NCBI GenBank assembly: GCA_013348845.1
Contig: CP054675.1
Coordinates: 682,001 to 746,000 of the forward strand
DNA: 64,000 bases
Direction: 5' to 3'
Source: Candidatus Tepidiaquacella proteinivora
GTDB lineage: Bacteria > Bacteroidota > Ignavibacteria > Tepidaquicellales > Tepidaquicellaceae
This document shows, in pieces, positions 31,325 to 46,639 of the stretch. A program made the translations under genes and the position numbers. The notes under the pieces were generated by a model. It saw only the letters and a program-made list of their open reading frames with translations. It was not told the DNA's origin and did not search any database. Numbering within the stretch: the stretch's first letter is position 1; the number at the start of each line of letters is the position of its first letter.

Positions 31325-32326
31325 TTAGTACATCCAGATTTGTGATTTGTCTTCAATAATAATCTGATAAGTATCTCTAAAAACTGAAAGTACACCTTTA
31401 CTACAAATAAAATATTCTTTCAAATCATCAAGATTATAGTCATTTAAAATTTCTTTTTTCTCACCCATAAAAACTAAATCAAAATTTACACCCTTTGAAA
31501 TATTTATTCTGATTAAAGCAGGATCTTTATCTACAAATACTTCTGTGACATTACCTAATATGATAATTTCTTTTCCAAGAAAATTACCTAATTTTTGCAG
31601 CTCATTATTATTCATTAAATTAAAAGCATTTTCCATTTGTGCAAACTCATTTTCAAACTTTTCTATTTGGTCAGCTCTCTTATTCCACCAGATTATTCTC
31701 TGTTCATAATCAGGATAACATTTACTTTCAGGATTCCAAATTCCAAGTTTATTTTTCCTTGCATACTGTTGTGCTTCCAGAAATTCCTTATGGAATCTTT
31801 TGCTATAACCATACTTTGTATAATAAGCACTATACCCTCTTTTCACACATTCAATATTGTAATTGATGTATTTACCATCAATATTTAAAAACATATAAAC
31901 AAGATATCTGCCATAAGTATCAATAATCCTATCAGTACTTTCAATTTCAAGTCTAACTGATTTTGCATCCTTAACAAATTCTTTAGCCCACATCCAGGTA
32001 TCATAGCCAAAAGGACTATCAATCTTTATAGGATATTTTGTCTGTATCTTATCCTGTTCTGAGAAATATTCTTTAGGCCAAATTAAACTTAAATCAAAAC
32101 TTTTCTGTTGAGCGTTTTTATCTTTAAAGGTTTCTTCTGTATCAATTCCCAAAAGACGGGTTGACTTATCTAATTTATCAAATTTGAAAGTATCTCCATC
32201 TACAACTTTAGTAATTACAAACTCCCCTATTACATAACTTGAATCAATTTTCTGAGAGTATGCAAACAGAGAAGTGAAAACAATAAGTAAGAGAGAAAAA
32301 TATAACTTTTTAAATATATTTTTCAT
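31325..32326 (-). CDS. Secreted staphylococcal-nuclease-like (thermonuclease) protein
   Basis: This is a 333-residue exported protein: signal peptide MKNIFKKLYFSLLLIVFTSLFAYSQ, then an SNase barrel at about residues 30-200. Catalytic residues fit RLLGIDTEET (Arg and Glu) and GRYLVYMFL (second Arg). An extension of about 130 residues follows, starting with a helix rich in aromatic and basic residues (WNKRADQIEKFENEF), then a small beta-rich tail. It probably degrades extracellular or periplasmic nucleic acids. Its stop lies 4 bp from the stop of the convergent phosphatase gene. Confidence 0.82.
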   Translation of the reverse strand: MKNIFKKLYFSLLLIVFTSLFAYSQKIDSSYVIGEFVITKVVDGDTFKFDKLDKSTRLLGIDTEETFKDKNAQQKSFDLSLIWPKEYFSEQDKIQTKYPIKIDSPFGYDTWMWAKEFVKDAKSVRLEIESTDRIIDTYGRYLVYMFLNIDGKYINYNIECVKRGYSAYYTKYGYSKRFHKEFLEAQQYARKNKLGIWNPESKCYPDYEQRIIWWNKRADQIEKFENEFAQMENAFNLMNNNELQKLGNFLGKEIIILGNVTEVFVDKDPALIRINISKGVNFDLVFMGEKKEILNDYNLDDLKEYFICSKGVLSVFRDTYQIIIEDKSQIWMY

Positions 32327-39858: not shown

Positions 39859-40941
39859 TTAATTTATCTCATTAATGTTAATAATGCCATCATCAGTAAT
39901 TAATAATTGACTTTCCGGGAAATCATGTGTGGATAATTTTCTTATTAATTTTATCGCAGCATTACTTTTATCAAGAACAGGAATACCTCTTTTTATTTGT
40001 TTGCAGGGAAATATTCTTCCGTGTAAAAATTCACCATTTTTATTTATAAAAATTTTTAAAATAGGGGCTAAACCAAGTTTCCCGGAAAATCCAAATTTCC
40101 CATAAGTACAAAAATTACCGAGGCTATAGGCAATAATTCTACCATTATATAACTCAATCCCTCTTGGGACATGCGGGCCATGACAAAATATAACATCTGC
40201 TCCAGAGTCAATCATTTTATGAGCGAATTCATATATATTTCCCCTATCCTCATTCATATAAAATTCCCGCTTTCTCGTAACATTAACAGAAGATTCACCT
40301 TCTGCTCCTGCGTGTATTGAAACTACAATAATTGATGTATCATTATTAATTTCTTCAATAATATTTAATGCTTTTTCAATATCATTCAGGTAGTGGTTTC
40401 TTGCAAAGCCTGTGAAAATAATATTCCTATTCTTTAAAACTATATTACAGAAAGGTTTTTCCCTTAAGCCAAAATATCCGATACCAAGAGAATCAAGAGT
40501 TGTTTTTGTACTTATTCTACCTTCCAGCCCCATATCATTAGAGTGATTATTTGCAAGGTTCACGAAATCAAAGCCAGCCTCTTTGAGATATTTCGCATAT
40601 CTTGTAGGTGTCCTAAATGCAACGCATCCATCGCATATTTTAGGCGAACCACCTTTATCCAACAATGGTCCTTCTAAATTACCAATTGTTAAATCCGCAT
40701 CCTGTAATATTTCACTGACATCTTTAAATAAATATTTACCATCATCAGGTGGCAAATCATTTGATGGATAAGTGCTTCCCATCATAATATCACCAACAAA
40801 AATTAATGAAATAGTATCATCAAGAATAACCATACTATCGTTTTTTAACTCATTATTAATATTATTCTTTTGCTCATTCTCACAAGACAAAAAAAATATC
40901 ATTGATAAATTAAGTACAGCAATAAAAATATATTTAAACAT
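39859..40941 (-). CDS. CapA-family lipoprotein (PGA_cap metallophosphatase-like)
   Basis: This is a 360-residue lipoprotein: signal peptide ending in the lipobox FFLSC (Cys near 20). The calcineurin-like CapA fold shows VGDIMMGS, GNLEGPLL, NLANNHSNDMG, SIHAGAEGE, FCHGPHVPRGIE and AYSLGNFC, i.e. the complete metal-binding set. Relatives take part in poly-gamma-glutamate capsule synthesis, but many members have no known substrate. It is the last gene of the kinase/namZ run, 12 bp after the kinase gene. The lipid anchor places it at the periplasmic face of a membrane. Confidence 0.88.
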   Translation of the reverse strand: MFKYIFIAVLNLSMIFFLSCENEQKNNINNELKNDSMVILDDTISLIFVGDIMMGSTYPSNDLPPDDGKYLFKDVSEILQDADLTIGNLEGPLLDKGGSPKICDGCVAFRTPTRYAKYLKEAGFDFVNLANNHSNDMGLEGRISTKTTLDSLGIGYFGLREKPFCNIVLKNRNIIFTGFARNHYLNDIEKALNIIEEINNDTSIIVVSIHAGAEGESSVNVTRKREFYMNEDRGNIYEFAHKMIDSGADVIFCHGPHVPRGIELYNGRIIAYSLGNFCTYGKFGFSGKLGLAPILKIFINKNGEFLHGRIFPCKQIKRGIPVLDKSNAAIKLIRKLSTHDFPESQLLITDDGIININEIN

Positions 40942-40953
40942 AAACGAAGTTAT

Positions 40954-42498
40954 TTATCTTACAATCTCAACTTCCCCGTGTGTAATATAATTATATTTAT
41001 TATCTAAAAGCGTAACCTTGTATGTCCCAGGAGTTGTGAAATTAATTTTCTTTTTATCCTGAAAATAAATATAATTCCACTCCGGCTGAACAGTAAATTG
41101 GATGGTGCGAATAGTTTTTTCTTTTATTTTATTTCCGAATTCATCTTTAATTTGTGATATTCTTATATAAACATTTTTTATACCGACTGACTTTTTAATA
41201 GGTCTATAATCAACCATTACTGTAAGGTAGCCAGTTGTAAATCTATCACTAACTCCTATTTCCCCAAGTTCTGGATCGTATGATTCACAAAAATATAATT
41301 TTGGTCTTGTTTTACTATCATAAATATCATTCTCACCATTTTTATTCAGAGTATCAATTCCCCTTTGAGTAACTGGCTTTTGCTTAAAAAGATTTTCTGA
41401 ACTAACAAATTTATAAATTAAAATCCCTGCAATTAAAAATATCATAGCAACTACAATAGCAATTATTACCGGAATCAAGTTTCCCTTTTTTGGCTGTTGA
41501 TGTTGATAACCTGGGATTCCTGAGTCTTGATAATATGTATTACCCGAGTAGTTGACTTTTGTATAATCAGTTTGATTTTCCGGAGTTGTCATTGTGAATA
41601 CTTTTTTCTCTTGAACCTTATCAATATTCAATTTGGGTTGTTCAATATTTGCGAATTTCACACCACCTTTTAAGAGTCTGTAATTTTCTAACGCACTAAT
41701 TAATTCGCTGTAACTGCTAAATCTATCCAGCGGATTTTTTTGTGTTGCTTTAGTTATTATCGATTCTAATTCCTGAGAAATATTTGGGATATAATTTCTT
41801 ATTGGTGGTAGAGATTCTCTCAAAATCTTATCTTTAATCAAATATTCACTTGATACATTATATTCAAAGGGCTTTCGACCGGTAAGTGAATAAAACATAA
41901 CAACCCCAAGTGAATAAATATCAGAGCGAAAATCATAATCTAAACCCTTGATTTGCTCAGGGCTCATATACATTATTGTACCTTTAAAATTATCAGTTAA
42001 AGAGATAAAGGATTTATCATTAAATACTTTCGCAATACCGAAATCAAGTATTTTCGGAACATCATTATCAAGTAAAATTACATTGGAAGGTTTTATGTTT
42101 CCGTGTAAGACTCCTTTTTTGTGAGCATATTGACAGGCATCTAAAATCTTTGAAAAGATACTAACAAGTCTATTCTCTTGTATCGGGCCATTTATTTTCT
42201 CTACATAAATATCTAATGGATATCCTTGTACATATTCTGTTAAAAACATCAGGTTTCCATTTTGTTCAATGAAATCCATTATCGATACAATATTCGGGTG
42301 ATTAAGATTAGATAAAATCTTCGCTTCACTGATAAAGTGCGATTTAAATTGTTCATTAGAAGAAAGGGCAGGATTTAAAACTTTAATTGCTACAAATTTT
42401 TCCTTTAATACCTGATTCTGTGCTAAATAAACAGTCCCCTTTGCACCTTCCCCTATTTTCTTTATTACTTTGTAATTAAAAATTATTTCTCCTATCAT
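40954..42498 (-). CDS. Transmembrane Ser/Thr kinase-like protein (catalytic Asp to Asn) with novel C-terminal domain
   Basis: This is a 514-residue bitopic protein. A cytosolic PKN2-type kinase domain (about 8-270) has the glycine loop GEGAKGTVY, Lys39 (VAIK), Glu58, DFG at 152-154 and SPEQ. The catalytic loop reads HGNIKPSN, so the base Asp is Asn134 and activity is doubtful. A linker to about 335, one transmembrane helix (about 338-362) and an extracytoplasmic domain at about 398-514 follow. The last domain starts KLYFCESY and contains GYLTVMVD and YFQDKK. It is clearly homologous to the lipoprotein at 46214. It may act as a pseudokinase sensor or scaffold. Confidence 0.88.
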   Translation of the reverse strand: MIGEIIFNYKVIKKIGEGAKGTVYLAQNQVLKEKFVAIKVLNPALSSNEQFKSHFISEAKILSNLNHPNIVSIMDFIEQNGNLMFLTEYVQGYPLDIYVEKINGPIQENRLVSIFSKILDACQYAHKKGVLHGNIKPSNVILLDNDVPKILDFGIAKVFNDKSFISLTDNFKGTIMYMSPEQIKGLDYDFRSDIYSLGVVMFYSLTGRKPFEYNVSSEYLIKDKILRESLPPIRNYIPNISQELESIITKATQKNPLDRFSSYSELISALENYRLLKGGVKFANIEQPKLNIDKVQEKKVFTMTTPENQTDYTKVNYSGNTYYQDSGIPGYQHQQPKKGNLIPVIIAIVVAMIFLIAGILIYKFVSSENLFKQKPVTQRGIDTLNKNGENDIYDSKTRPKLYFCESYDPELGEIGVSDRFTTGYLTVMVDYRPIKKSVGIKNVYIRISQIKDEFGNKIKEKTIRTIQFTVQPEWNYIYFQDKKKINFTTPGTYKVTLLDNKYNYITHGEVEIVR

Positions 42499-42513
42499 AT
42501 TTTTGTAATTTAT

Positions 42514-43779
42514 TTAATATAATAAAAATTTATTTATTTTATTTTTAAAATTTTCTACATCACTTTGCCAGGATTTCAAAATATAATTATATGATTCATT
42601 ATTATTAATCATAATTCTCAGTTTATTTGTTCCCGCTAACTTGTCAATAAAGTTGTTATTTATCCATTTAAAGTTTTTTTCAAGATTCTTTAAACTCAGG
42701 AGTATTGCGATTGCAGTTTCCATCGGTTTATATTCCTGAAAGTTTGTTAACGTAATTTTTATTCCATAACATTTCTCATTACAATATTTAGGTACATAAC
42801 CGGATTTATCTTTTACAGGTGTAAATTCTGTTTTTTGAAAATCAACTCCACTTAAACTATACTTACTTAATTCATTTAATAATAAATCAGAATTACAAAA
42901 AGGTGACCCGAATAATGTGAATGGAAACTCTGTCCCCCTGCCTTCCGAAATATTTGTTCCTTCAAGAAAACAAAGAGCAGGATATAGACGCGCAGACTCT
43001 AAATTTCTTATATTTGGAGATGGATTAACCCATTTAATATTCAGGTTTTTAAAGTCTGTAGTTCTGTTATATCCTTGCATTTTCATAATTTTTAAATTCA
43101 TTATATTTCCATTTCCTTGTAAAACAGATTTAAGATAATTTCCGAGTTCTCCGGTTGTCATTCCGTAGCAAACTGGTGTAGGAATCATTCCAACAAAAGA
43201 TGAAAAATCGGGTTCAAGAAGAAAACCTGAGACATAATTCAAATTATGCATTGCCGGCCTGTCACATATTATAAACTGAATCCCGTTTTTCTTTGCATCT
43301 TTCATTGTAAGATAAAGAGTTGATGTATAAGTATAGAATCTGACCCCAAGGTCTTGAATATCATATATTAAAACATCTATATCATTTAAATATTCATCCT
43401 TAATATTTTTCTGTTTATCATAAAGAGAAATTACAGGAATACCAAATAAATTCTCCTGATATCCATCATCACTAAAAAACCCATGTTCCGGTGTAAATAT
43501 CCTTACAATATTTATATTTTTTTCAGTTAAGGCTTTGACAAGATGCTGACCATCAGGCAAAATACCTGTTTGATTTGTAATAACTGCAACCCTTTTATCT
43601 AAAAGTAAATTCAGGGAATCAAATAATGTTTCTCCTCCGGTTTTAAATTCTGAAATGTTAGGATAATTTTTATTCCCAAAAGTTAAATCTAAATTCAAAA
43701 AAGAAAAAAATAACATTAAAAAAACAAATAATATTATAAAAATAAAAAATATTTTACGGAAATTATTTTTTATCATCAT
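42514..43779 (-). CDS. namZ: Exo-beta-N-acetylmuramidase NamZ-like (DUF1343)
   Basis: This is a 421-residue protein with an N-terminal hydrophobic signal or anchor segment (about 10-30). The DUF1343/NamZ motifs are clear: RVAVITNQTG, RIFTPEHGFF, YDIQDLGVRFYTY, CDRPAMHN, CYGMTTGELG, WVNPSPNIRN and EGTNISEGRGTEFPF. Characterised NamZ removes terminal MurNAc from peptidoglycan fragments. It is exported here, so it should work in the periplasm or on the surface. Its start overlaps the upstream bitopic-protein gene by 17 bp. Together with anmK it indicates MurNAc turnover. Confidence 0.9.
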   Translation of the reverse strand: MMIKNNFRKIFFIFIILFVFLMLFFSFLNLDLTFGNKNYPNISEFKTGGETLFDSLNLLLDKRVAVITNQTGILPDGQHLVKALTEKNINIVRIFTPEHGFFSDDGYQENLFGIPVISLYDKQKNIKDEYLNDIDVLIYDIQDLGVRFYTYTSTLYLTMKDAKKNGIQFIICDRPAMHNLNYVSGFLLEPDFSSFVGMIPTPVCYGMTTGELGNYLKSVLQGNGNIMNLKIMKMQGYNRTTDFKNLNIKWVNPSPNIRNLESARLYPALCFLEGTNISEGRGTEFPFTLFGSPFCNSDLLLNELSKYSLSGVDFQKTEFTPVKDKSGYVPKYCNEKCYGIKITLTNFQEYKPMETAIAILLSLKNLEKNFKWINNNFIDKLAGTNKLRIMINNNESYNYILKSWQSDVENFKNKINKFLLY

Positions 43780-44629
43780 CTTTCAGACCTTCTTCTTTTT
43801 CTGATTTTCTGATATTGTCTTTTTCTTTCTTCTCTTTCTGTTCATTATCGGTATCCTTTTCACCTTCTTTTATTTCAGTTTCTTTCAATTCTTTATTTTC
43901 TTTTAATTCATCAATTTTCTTAACGGAATCCACCTTCCTTTTAGCTGAAGAATCAATAATAATGACTTCAGTCTCCTTTTTCTTCTTTTTGACATTTGAA
44001 GTATCTTTTAAAGGAATACCAATAATTTCTTTTTCCCTTCGAATTTCTGAAAGAAGTTCAAATGATTTCAAAAAAATTGTATCATTTTTAAATTCAAAGT
44101 CAATAATATATTCAACATTTATAAAATCACCTTCTAAAAAATTAGTTCTATAAATCCAGCTATTAATACCAAAATCTTTAAATGTTTTACTTTCTATAAC
44201 AATACTATGGACAAAGCCTCTTTTAGACAACAATTCCTTAAGACGCTTTAAGCCACAGTTTTCATTGAAATTTGACTCAATATAGGAAACAACATCAAAA
44301 TAAAATTTCACTGAATCAGGTAAAGGTTCATCATTATGCAGATAAAATAAAAGAGATTCAATATTGGATTCTAATCCGGTAGGATAATTTCTAATTGACC
44401 TTTTTTCCTTTTCTATAATATCTTTATTTCCTCCTGTGATAAACAACAAGACTACAATTATCAAAAGTAAAGGAATCAGGAAGTATAGTATATTAATCTT
44501 ATATTTAATTAATTTTTCTTTGAAAGAAGTTTTAGGTTTTTTCTCTTTCTTATTAAAAGGTGAAGAGAAAACATTATCTTTTAGATTTTTCTTCTTATCA
44601 TTTTCATCTAAGTTTTGAGTATTTTTCAT
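43763..44629 (-). CDS. Bitopic membrane protein with lysine/glutamate-rich tail, unknown
   Basis: This 288-residue protein has a basic cytosolic N-terminus (about 1-47), one transmembrane helix (about 48-68, YFLIPLLLIIVVLLF) and a folded region at about 85-205 with mixed helices and strands. It ends in about 80 residues of nearly pure Lys/Glu/Asp low-complexity sequence. The positive-inside rule puts the folded part and tail outside the cytoplasm. No family is recognised. It overlaps namZ by 17 bp, so a joint role in the envelope is likely. Confidence 0.65.
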   Translation of the reverse strand: MKNTQNLDENDKKKNLKDNVFSSPFNKKEKKPKTSFKEKLIKYKINILYFLIPLLLIIVVLLFITGGNKDIIEKEKRSIRNYPTGLESNIESLLFYLHNDEPLPDSVKFYFDVVSYIESNFNENCGLKRLKELLSKRGFVHSIVIESKTFKDFGINSWIYRTNFLEGDFINVEYIIDFEFKNDTIFLKSFELLSEIRREKEIIGIPLKDTSNVKKKKKETEVIIIDSSAKRKVDSVKKIDELKENKELKETEIKEGEKDTDNEQKEKKEKDNIRKSEKEEGLKDDDKK

Positions 44630-44642
44630 TTTTCAGATAAAT

Positions 44643-46109
44643 TTATCTACTAAATAATTTTTGGACAACAAATTTAACATTTTCAATTTTTATAACTTTA
44701 AATATAAAAATCAAAGTTATAAAAGCAAAGAAAAGAATAATTTTAAAATAAATGAGACCTGACCCTGCAAATGAACTTACATAATAAAATAAAATAATAG
44801 TAATAAAAATTGAAATAAAAATGTTGAGCAATTTTATATATTCATATTGAATTTTATAATATTTATTTACAACAAGAAATATTCCAATAGCCATAGAAAT
44901 ATAACTAAATAATGAAGCAATAGCAGAACCTAAAATTCCAAAAAGAGGGATTAAAGCTAAGTTCAGCAATATATTTACTAAAGCAGCAACAACCGTAATA
45001 AGGGAAAGATATTTAGTTTTTTTCATTATATAAATTCCCGGCATCAGGTTAATATAAATACCATAAATCAGATAAGCAAATAAAACAATAGGAACAATAT
45101 TCAAGCCAGACCAATATGCCTGACCAATTAAATATCCTTTATTAAAAAATTTAATTTTAACAATATCATTAATAAATAAAGTTAAAACAATAAAGAGAAA
45201 TGCTTCTGCTAATGTAAAAAGTGTTAATACTTTAGAGAAAAGATTTTTTGCATTCGGGTCTTTATAGTTTTGCATAAAAAATGGCCGCCAGGCGAACTCA
45301 AACATTGATACAAAGAGCATCATAAATATTCCCAATTTATAATTCGCCTGAAAAATCCCAACCTCCGAATAATCCTTTGTAACAAGATAAATCATAGGCC
45401 TGCTAATAACCTGTATAATATTGGAACTAATACCTGCCGGTATGTATGGCAAAGAAAATCTTAATAGCTCAGAAATTAAATTTTTGTTTATACTAAATGA
45501 AACATTCTTAAAAACAATTGGTGATAGTAATAAAAACGTTACCACTGATGCAACAACATTACTAATAAAAATAGCATCAATTCCCCATCTGAATCCAAGT
45601 ATTAAAATAAAATTAAGTGATACATTTACACCAATATTTATTAACTTAATTATTACAAACTTCACAGGTTTATGTGATAATCTCAGATAGGCAAACGGAA
45701 CAATAGAAACAGCATCAAAGAAAAGTATTATCGCGGTGTATTTTAAAATATAATCTCTACCTTCAGGAACCTGAAAAAGCCAGGAAAGATTTTTTGAAAA
45801 AAGAAAAAGGATTGAAGATAAAACCAATGAATTAAGAAAAATTCCTATAAACGGGTGAGTAAAATTTTCTTTTGCATTCCCGACTTCCAGAGTTGCTGCA
45901 AATCTGAAATAACCAGACTCCAAACCAATCGTGAAAAAGACATTTAAGATGGCAATGTATGCGTAAATGTTAGCAACAATACCAAACTCACCCGGTGCAA
46001 AAATATTGGTATAAAGGGGAACAAATAGGAAATTTATAAACCGACCAATTATAGTATTAGTACCATATATTAATGTATCTTTCGATAAAGTCTTAATCTT
46101 TTCAAACAT
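44643..46109 (-). CDS. Polysaccharide biosynthesis flippase (Wzx/MOP family)
   Basis: This is a 488-residue membrane protein with about 14 hydrophobic segments. The typical Wzx/RfbX N-terminus is present (KDTLIYGTNTIIGRFINFLFVPLYTNIFAPGEFGIV). Such proteins flip lipid-linked oligosaccharide units across the inner membrane for O-antigen, capsule or exopolysaccharide. No polymerase or glycosyltransferase cluster is beside it, so the substrate is open. A terminator-like hairpin upstream separates it from the lipoprotein gene, so it may have its own promoter within the 104-bp gap. Confidence 0.87.
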   Translation of the reverse strand: MFEKIKTLSKDTLIYGTNTIIGRFINFLFVPLYTNIFAPGEFGIVANIYAYIAILNVFFTIGLESGYFRFAATLEVGNAKENFTHPFIGIFLNSLVLSSILFLFSKNLSWLFQVPEGRDYILKYTAIILFFDAVSIVPFAYLRLSHKPVKFVIIKLINIGVNVSLNFILILGFRWGIDAIFISNVVASVVTFLLLSPIVFKNVSFSINKNLISELLRFSLPYIPAGISSNIIQVISRPMIYLVTKDYSEVGIFQANYKLGIFMMLFVSMFEFAWRPFFMQNYKDPNAKNLFSKVLTLFTLAEAFLFIVLTLFINDIVKIKFFNKGYLIGQAYWSGLNIVPIVLFAYLIYGIYINLMPGIYIMKKTKYLSLITVVAALVNILLNLALIPLFGILGSAIASLFSYISMAIGIFLVVNKYYKIQYEYIKLLNIFISIFITIILFYYVSSFAGSGLIYFKIILFFAFITLIFIFKVIKIENVKFVVQKLFSR

Positions 46110-46154
46110 ATTGTTGTAAAAAATAAACTAAATATATGAAAATAATAATACTAA

Positions 46155-46176
46155 AAAGTAAATCAAGATTTACTTT
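46155..46176 (-). terminator. Terminator-like hairpin after the lipoprotein gene
   Basis: A perfect 10-bp inverted repeat (AAAGTAAATC/GATTTACTTT, 2-nt centre) lies 38 bp past the 46214 stop. Reading the minus strand, the second arm runs into a T-rich stretch. It probably ends lipoprotein transcription before the flippase operon. Confidence 0.5.
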
Positions 46177-46213
46177 CCCCTCTGTTTAAACCGGATTGTT
46201 TAATCAGTAAGAA

Positions 46214-46639
46214 TTACTTCTTAACCACTTCTACTTCGCCGGAAGCAATTTTTTTTCCGTTCTTATCTGCTAATGTAACACGATAAGTTCCTGGCAGTTT
46301 GAAACCGAGTCTCTCTTTATCCTGAAAATACAAATAATCCCACTCTGCTCTGACAGTAAAAGGAATTATATCAATTTCCTTTTCAGCTATTTCATCACCA
46401 TTTTCATCTTTAATCTGCGTTAAAATTAAATCCACATCATCAACACCCACTTTTCTATTCTCAGGCCTTAAATCTACCATAACGGTCAGATAGCCCGGTG
46501 TGAATCTGTTACTAACACCAATTTCTTTACCATCTACATAATCCTCACAAAAATAAAGAGAACTTTTCTTCCCACAACCATTAAACAGCAATAAAAAAAT
46601 AATACCACTCAAAGCGAAAAGAAAAATCTTTTTAATCAT
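46214..46639 (-). CDS. Lipoprotein consisting of the kinase-type FCE(S/D)Y domain
   Basis: This is a 141-residue protein: signal peptide with lipobox LFNGC (Cys near 22), then one domain starting LYFCEDY. The domain matches the extracytoplasmic domain of the kinase at 40954 almost end to end. Shared blocks include EIGVS, GYLTVMVD, QIKDE, the EW.Y.YFQDK stretch and PGTY.VTL (about 60 of 115 positions identical by hand alignment). It has the look of a small beta-sandwich. No named family is recognised. It may be a soluble competitor, ligand carrier or partner of the kinase ectodomain. Confidence 0.82.
   Translation of the reverse strand: MIKKIFLFALSGIIFLLLFNGCGKKSSLYFCEDYVDGKEIGVSNRFTPGYLTVMVDLRPENRKVGVDDVDLILTQIKDENGDEIAEKEIDIIPFTVRAEWDYLYFQDKERLGFKLPGTYRVTLADKNGKKIASGEVEVVKK

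Follow-up and report, generated by a model that had tools for sequence, protein, structure and literature searches.

PASTA-type kinases, such as the S. aureus PASTA kinase, StkP and PknB, are built of an N-terminal kinase, a linker, a single transmembrane segment and an extracytoplasmic C-terminal part. Receptor kinases with lineage-specific ectodomains, as well as pseudokinases at the envelope, are already known. The MviN pseudokinase of Mycobacterium tuberculosis (ActPs3) is a membrane-anchored kinase-fold protein without catalysis that is tied to peptidoglycan synthesis and carries an extra domain of carbohydrate-binding type; it resides inside the MviN flippase and all of its catalytic motifs are absent (PMC12599244). 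The accepted criteria for pseudokinases number three, loss of the HRD Asp being one of them, and a protein counts as a pseudokinase by sequence when at least one of the beta3 Lys, the HRD Asp and the DFG Asp is lost (PMC12599244).

Here, we analyzed a kinase-like receptor and a nearby lipoprotein encoded in a stretch of 64,000 nucleotides (hereafter the window) of genome G000. The receptor has the layout of the PASTA-type kinases, which are also the closest to its kinase domain by sequence. The PASTA kinase profile NF033483 matched residues 9-367 (E=2.9e-80), covering kinase, linker and transmembrane segment only, at 270.9 bits, which is below the cut-off of 450. In contrast with these kinases, no PASTA repeats were found in the Pfam scan, and the receptor carries an unrelated single domain, predicted to be Ig-like, and an HGN catalytic loop. 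Unlike the MviN pseudokinase, the window kinase has a gene of its own in the neighborhood of a Wzx-like flippase, only its HRD Asp is missing, and the likeness is one of analogy, not whole-protein homology. Finally, kinases of STK/FHA/PP2C islands in the same order (G001:C104, G009:C11 and G031:C141) share the kinase lineage and the layout of linker and transmembrane segment (41-51% identity), whereas they have other ectodomains, a canonical HRD and FHA partners.

Two copies of one domain among envelope genes

Both open reading frames are present as described in the initial annotation, on the minus strand and 514 and 141 residues long (Table 1). It had also proposed, from about 60 identities counted by hand, that the end of the kinase-like protein and the mature lipoprotein align end to end. 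BLASTP bore this out: 64 of 117 positions were identical between residues 398-514 of the former and 25-140 of the latter (84 positives, 1 gap, 130 bits, E=4e-41), which is far past chance. The kinase-like transmembrane nature of the larger protein was supported by a hydrophobic run and by a Pkinase match (PF00069) of 184.6 bits against a cut-off of 31.7, consistent with a Hanks-type fold. The smaller protein is a putative lipoprotein, as judged by eye from its hydrophobic N-terminus and the FNGC that follows; its signal is MIKKIFLFALSGIIFLLLFNGC, with a slightly atypical lipobox that reads FVGC in the G002 orthologue. A third copy of the domain in this genome, divergent and secreted, was observed at G000:C1:2362399-2362722 (L110:9307-9729); it is of the LYFCEGVD... 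class and has an orthologue in G001.

Pfam confirmed the names previously given to the NamZ, CapA-type and flippase neighbors, and the bitopic K/E-tailed protein between the two domain genes had no Pfam match; neither a family nor a usable fold was found for it (AlphaFold2 pLDDT 43.6 from 3 sequences). The view that a single unnamed domain serves as receptor ectodomain and as lipoprotein among envelope genes is thus supported. Little space separates the genes of the run wzx - bitopic - namZ - kinase - capA, with gaps of 12-15 bases or a short overlap, and their co-transcription is plausible. A promoter and terminator scan performed no better than on shuffled sequences, so the operon limits are drawn from spacing only.

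Table 1. Features of the kinase-lipoprotein locus (window coordinates)
Feature	Position	Strand	Basis
CapA-type PGA_cap lipoprotein	39859..40941	-	PF09587 E=2e-48
Kinase-like/TM/Ig-like receptor, 514 aa	40954..42498	-	fusion only in G000, G001, G002 (one genus)
Ig-like 'LYFCE' domain (predicted), receptor ectodomain, residues 401-514	40957..41298	-	BLASTP, profile matches
Transmembrane segment, residues 341-362	41413..41478	-	22-residue hydrophobic run
Hanks-type kinase domain, residues 9-262	41713..42474	-	PF00069 E=2.9e-54; nearest solved 4eqm, StkP, PknB
Catalytic-loop HGN for HRD, residues 132-134	42097..42105	-	20-kinase alignment; codons CAC GGA AAC
NamZ exo-muramidase	42514..43779	-	PF07075/PF20732
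Bitopic K/E-tailed protein	43763..44629	-	convincing orthologues only in same genus, same place
Wzx-like flippase (Polysacc_synt), conserved downstream neighbor of domain genes	44643..46109	-	PF01943 E=3.7e-13; synteny
Gene of the stand-alone lipoprotein, next after nadC	46214..46639	-	nadC-domain adjacency in 22/22 sampled loci
Ig-like 'LYFCE' domain (predicted), mature lipoprotein part, residues 28-141	46217..46558	-	BLASTP E=4e-41, profile matches, AF2 pLDDT 97
Presumed lipobox Cys22 (FNGC)	46574..46576	-	sequence; FVGC in G002 orthologue

An order-wide domain family and its genomic settings

Neither Pfam nor NCBIfam gave a convincing match for any of 53 aligned members of the domain, in agreement with the earlier statement that no family could be named. 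The best Pfam match to the ectodomain was DUF2914 (13 bits against a cut-off of 23.6) and NCBIfam returned none. We rejected an assignment of the domain to PASTA, BsuPI or a DUF-type family, as neither database gave a family match, and a match of one member to PF21160 (PrkC PASTA-like, E=0.09) was taken as chance. Searched by sequence, the PDB held no relative (best E=0.12). The AlphaFold2 model built on the 53-sequence alignment had a pLDDT of 97.3 and consisted of strands only. Its top Foldseek match was 3n6y (PA1606, Ig-like; E=4.6e-3, TM 0.52), with 8% identity, an rmsd of 6.8 and the fold class alone in common, and no close structural relative was found in the PDB by Foldseek at E<=0.001. 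As modeled, the shared domain is an Ig-like beta-sandwich to which no solved structure is specifically related.

With a single sequence as query, the domain was detected in 43 of 59 relatives; with the profile, it was detected in all 44 genomes of the order that were examined, with 2-7 copies each. The phylum sample yielded 28 domain-containing genomes out of 395, including members of the families coded f18 and f20, as well as a double-domain form in family f10. The f10 double-domain proteins are secreted (L120:9235-10005, L121, L123, L127 and L128), and several of these loci lie beside TrkA/TrkH-like genes. No plasmid presence was found. The domain is an order-wide multigene family, mostly of lipoproteins or secreted proteins. 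Its simple forms are short lipoproteins, lipoproteins with charged spacers and Sec-type secreted proteins ending in ..AQ. In other forms a transmembrane segment joins it to a cytoplasmic part, which is a zinc ribbon with polyproline in L049:2480-3355 (G007), polyproline alone in L048:9786-10478 (G017), and a kinase in G000, G001 and G002, the window's genus and the only genomes with kinase-length frames that contain the domain. At E<=1e-8, a Pkinase match occurred in 11 of the 44 order genomes, the remaining 33 having no Hanks kinase at this cut-off. Given a domain in 44 of 44 genomes, a Hanks kinase in 11 and a fusion confined to one genus, the pairing of kinase and lipoprotein forms, which had been implied as a general logic, was rejected as a co-occurrence rule. 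The initial annotation had itself stated that a general fold found widely without any kinase link would speak against its reading, and a generic Ig-like sandwich with such a distribution is largely what we observed.

The next gene after nadC was a domain gene in all 22 sampled loci that hold nadC, with one to three copies in tandem. In most loci wzx followed directly; genes were interposed in L054, L057 and L061, and the L062 locus ends before the wzx position. Further downstream, some f1 genomes have namZ after wzx and a smaller number have capA, and neighbors beyond nadC and wzx vary between loci. The kinase and the bitopic K/E protein are additions to the locus only in the window's genus, the kinase lying between namZ and capA; in G021, namZ and capA are adjacent without a kinase. 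Conservation of locus order, proposed earlier as a check, thus held for the place of the lipoprotein (nadC - domain genes - wzx) but not for that of the kinase outside the genus. A second conserved home of the domain was observed next to deoA-like, SNase and M23-peptidase genes or guaB (L039, L041, L043, L052, L056, L060 and L063). The window also encodes an SNase homologue, at 31325-32326, with no domain gene beside it.

Catalytic motifs, constraint and signalling partners

In an alignment of 20 kinases, the catalytic loop reads LHGNIKPSN in G000, INGDVKPSN in G002 and VHRDIKPSN in G001, and departures from HRD were confined to G000 (HGN) and G002 (NGD), with HRD in G001 and the other 17 (the G007 row is gapped after HRD and says nothing on later motifs). 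G000 has lost the HRD Arg, and its catalytic-base Asp is replaced by Asn in the one genome assembly; G002 retains the catalytic Asp. The initial annotation had passed over the HGN and the other marks of lost catalysis. Both have lost the T-loop TxTG, a strict form of which is also absent from a few more distant kinases, and both have a diverged middle of the glycine loop (GGMG to GAKG or GRLG). The beta3 Lys (VAIK), the alphaC Glu, the metal-binding Asn of the catalytic loop and DFG are kept in both. The triad of an active Hanks kinase (beta3 Lys, HRD Asp and DFG Asp) is thus incomplete in G000, where VAIK and DFG are present and HRD is HGN, and by the sequence definition of a pseudokinase (PMC12599244) the G000 protein qualifies, and neither the G002 (NGD) nor the G001 (HRD) protein does. 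On the basis of these motifs, catalysis is probably impaired in the kinase of the window strain. Precedents for reduced or absent activity include HER3 (HRN) and plant HGN receptor-like kinases.

Between G000 and G002, identity was 61.2% in the kinase domain, 28.8% in the juxtamembrane region, 43.9% in the transmembrane segment and stalk and 73.7% in the ectodomain, with dN of 0.274, 0.682, 0.559 and 0.169, respectively. The corresponding dN was 0.119 for the lipoprotein, 0.111 for wzx, 0.229 for namZ and 0.236 for capA. Since dS between members of the genus is high or saturated, we make no claim on dN/dS. Purifying selection clearly continues to act on the kinase domain (dN 0.274, dS saturated). 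Its dN exceeds those of namZ and capA only slightly, so any decay is moderate, and continued selection speaks for a function that is kept in altered form and against a gene on its way to loss. In the kinase tree, the stem of G000 and G002 measured 0.42 and their own branches 0.42 and 0.53, compared with 0.51 for the G001 branch in its entirety. Read informally, these lengths agree with faster change in this pair. In the domain tree, which is based on few columns, the kinase ectodomains lie near two bitopic non-kinase forms. A single clade of kinase ectodomains is split in the free tree but not rejected by the AU test (p=0.66), nor is a clade of all five kinase and other bitopic forms (p=0.69).

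At the cut-off, G000 and G002 had one Pkinase match each and no FHA match, and G001 had three and six, respectively. One bitopic PP2C with intact motifs is kept in all three genomes (DGMGG, GDSR, SDGL/TDGL and DNIT in G000 and G002). In G000, where the sole Hanks kinase is without the catalytic Asp, it lies next to cinA at G000:C1:296749-297324 (L132:1438-3024). The additional kinases of G001, its FHA proteins and PP2C occur together on C104, and similar islands are found on G009:C11 and G031:C141; such tandem Ser/Thr kinase islands, with varied ectodomains, FHA and PP2C, are patchy in the order. The intact PP2C of G000 and G002 suggests that phospho-Ser/Thr signalling persists there, and it is what speaks most strongly against the pseudokinase reading.

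Interpretation of the receptor

We are almost certain of the anatomy of the two proteins and of the distribution of their domain. As a whole, the best explanation, to which we give about an even chance, is a genus-specific receptor that uses a periplasmic domain of the order family and here probably acts without phosphotransfer. In the ancestor of the genus, a gene that encodes a PknB-type kinase, a Pro/Gln-rich linker, a transmembrane segment and, at its end, one copy of the domain would have settled between namZ and capA. The kinase would then be cytoplasmic and the Ig-like domain periplasmic, where it may recognize an envelope component or a partner protein. Dimerization or a conformational change might let the kinase-fold part report on envelope export or turnover, in which the flippase, NamZ and CapA of the same run may take part. 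Envelope sensing through the Ig-like domain is a tentative proposal that we hold somewhat below even. In the window strain, the cytoplasmic part is most likely a (pseudo)kinase scaffold that binds ATP but is impaired in catalysis, and not a signalling kinase. A possible history, which we put forward with some reserve, is that FHA readers and other Hanks kinases were lost, after which the remaining receptor's catalytic loop and T-loop eroded, and the sensor and PP2C were kept, the sensor for a non-catalytic output. The order of these losses is inferred from three genomes, and the island in G001 could have been gained instead of lost elsewhere.

The strongest alternative, possible though we do not favor it, is that the receptor remains active as an atypical (non-RD) kinase. 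It would then be the strain's last Ser/Thr kinase and act together with the bitopic PP2C. Each of G000 and G002 does combine one Hanks kinase with one intact PP2C, the Lys, alphaC Glu, catalytic-loop Asn and DFG are retained, G002 has the Asp (NGD), and joint loss of the HRD Arg and the T-loop Thr is what conversion from RD to non-RD would be expected to produce. However, the base in G000 is Asn instead of Asp, FHA phospho-readers were not found in either genome, and the middle of the glycine loop has diverged in the pair. A second alternative sees in the ectodomain a generic Ig-like cap (for spacing, stability or dimerization) that has no part in sensing, was captured from the nearby tandem array and is co-located as a by-product of local duplication; this appears unlikely. 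It draws on the arrays of one to three copies beside nadC, on the varied cytoplasmic partners (zinc ribbon/polyproline, polyproline and kinase) and on the generic fold, but the ectodomain has diverged less than the kinase in the comparison of G000 with G002, and the juxtamembrane region, transmembrane segment and stalk vary freely whereas the domain does not. The original idea that receptor and lipoprotein share a ligand, with the lipoprotein as a soluble competitor or co-receptor, is quite improbable, although both carry the same domain (~55-56% identity) and are encoded on one strand in a single gene run. Throughout the order, in genomes that have no such receptor, the lipoprotein adjoins nadC and wzx, and thus it did not evolve for the receptor. 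The window lipoprotein also shows higher identity with lipoproteins of other genera (up to 62%) than with the ectodomain of its own kinase. A sensor-adaptor pair, likewise raised in the initial annotation, would be another candidate relation between the two.

In summary, our analysis defines a previously unannotated family of predicted Ig-like envelope domains that is present in every genome of the order examined and has a conserved home beside nadC. As an ectodomain, the family is found on different cytoplasmic parts, namely zinc ribbon/polyproline, polyproline and kinase. If the preferred reading of the receptor is right, HRD in G001, NGD in G002 and HGN in G000 would form a small natural series for the loss of catalysis in a receptor kinase whose sensor is kept.
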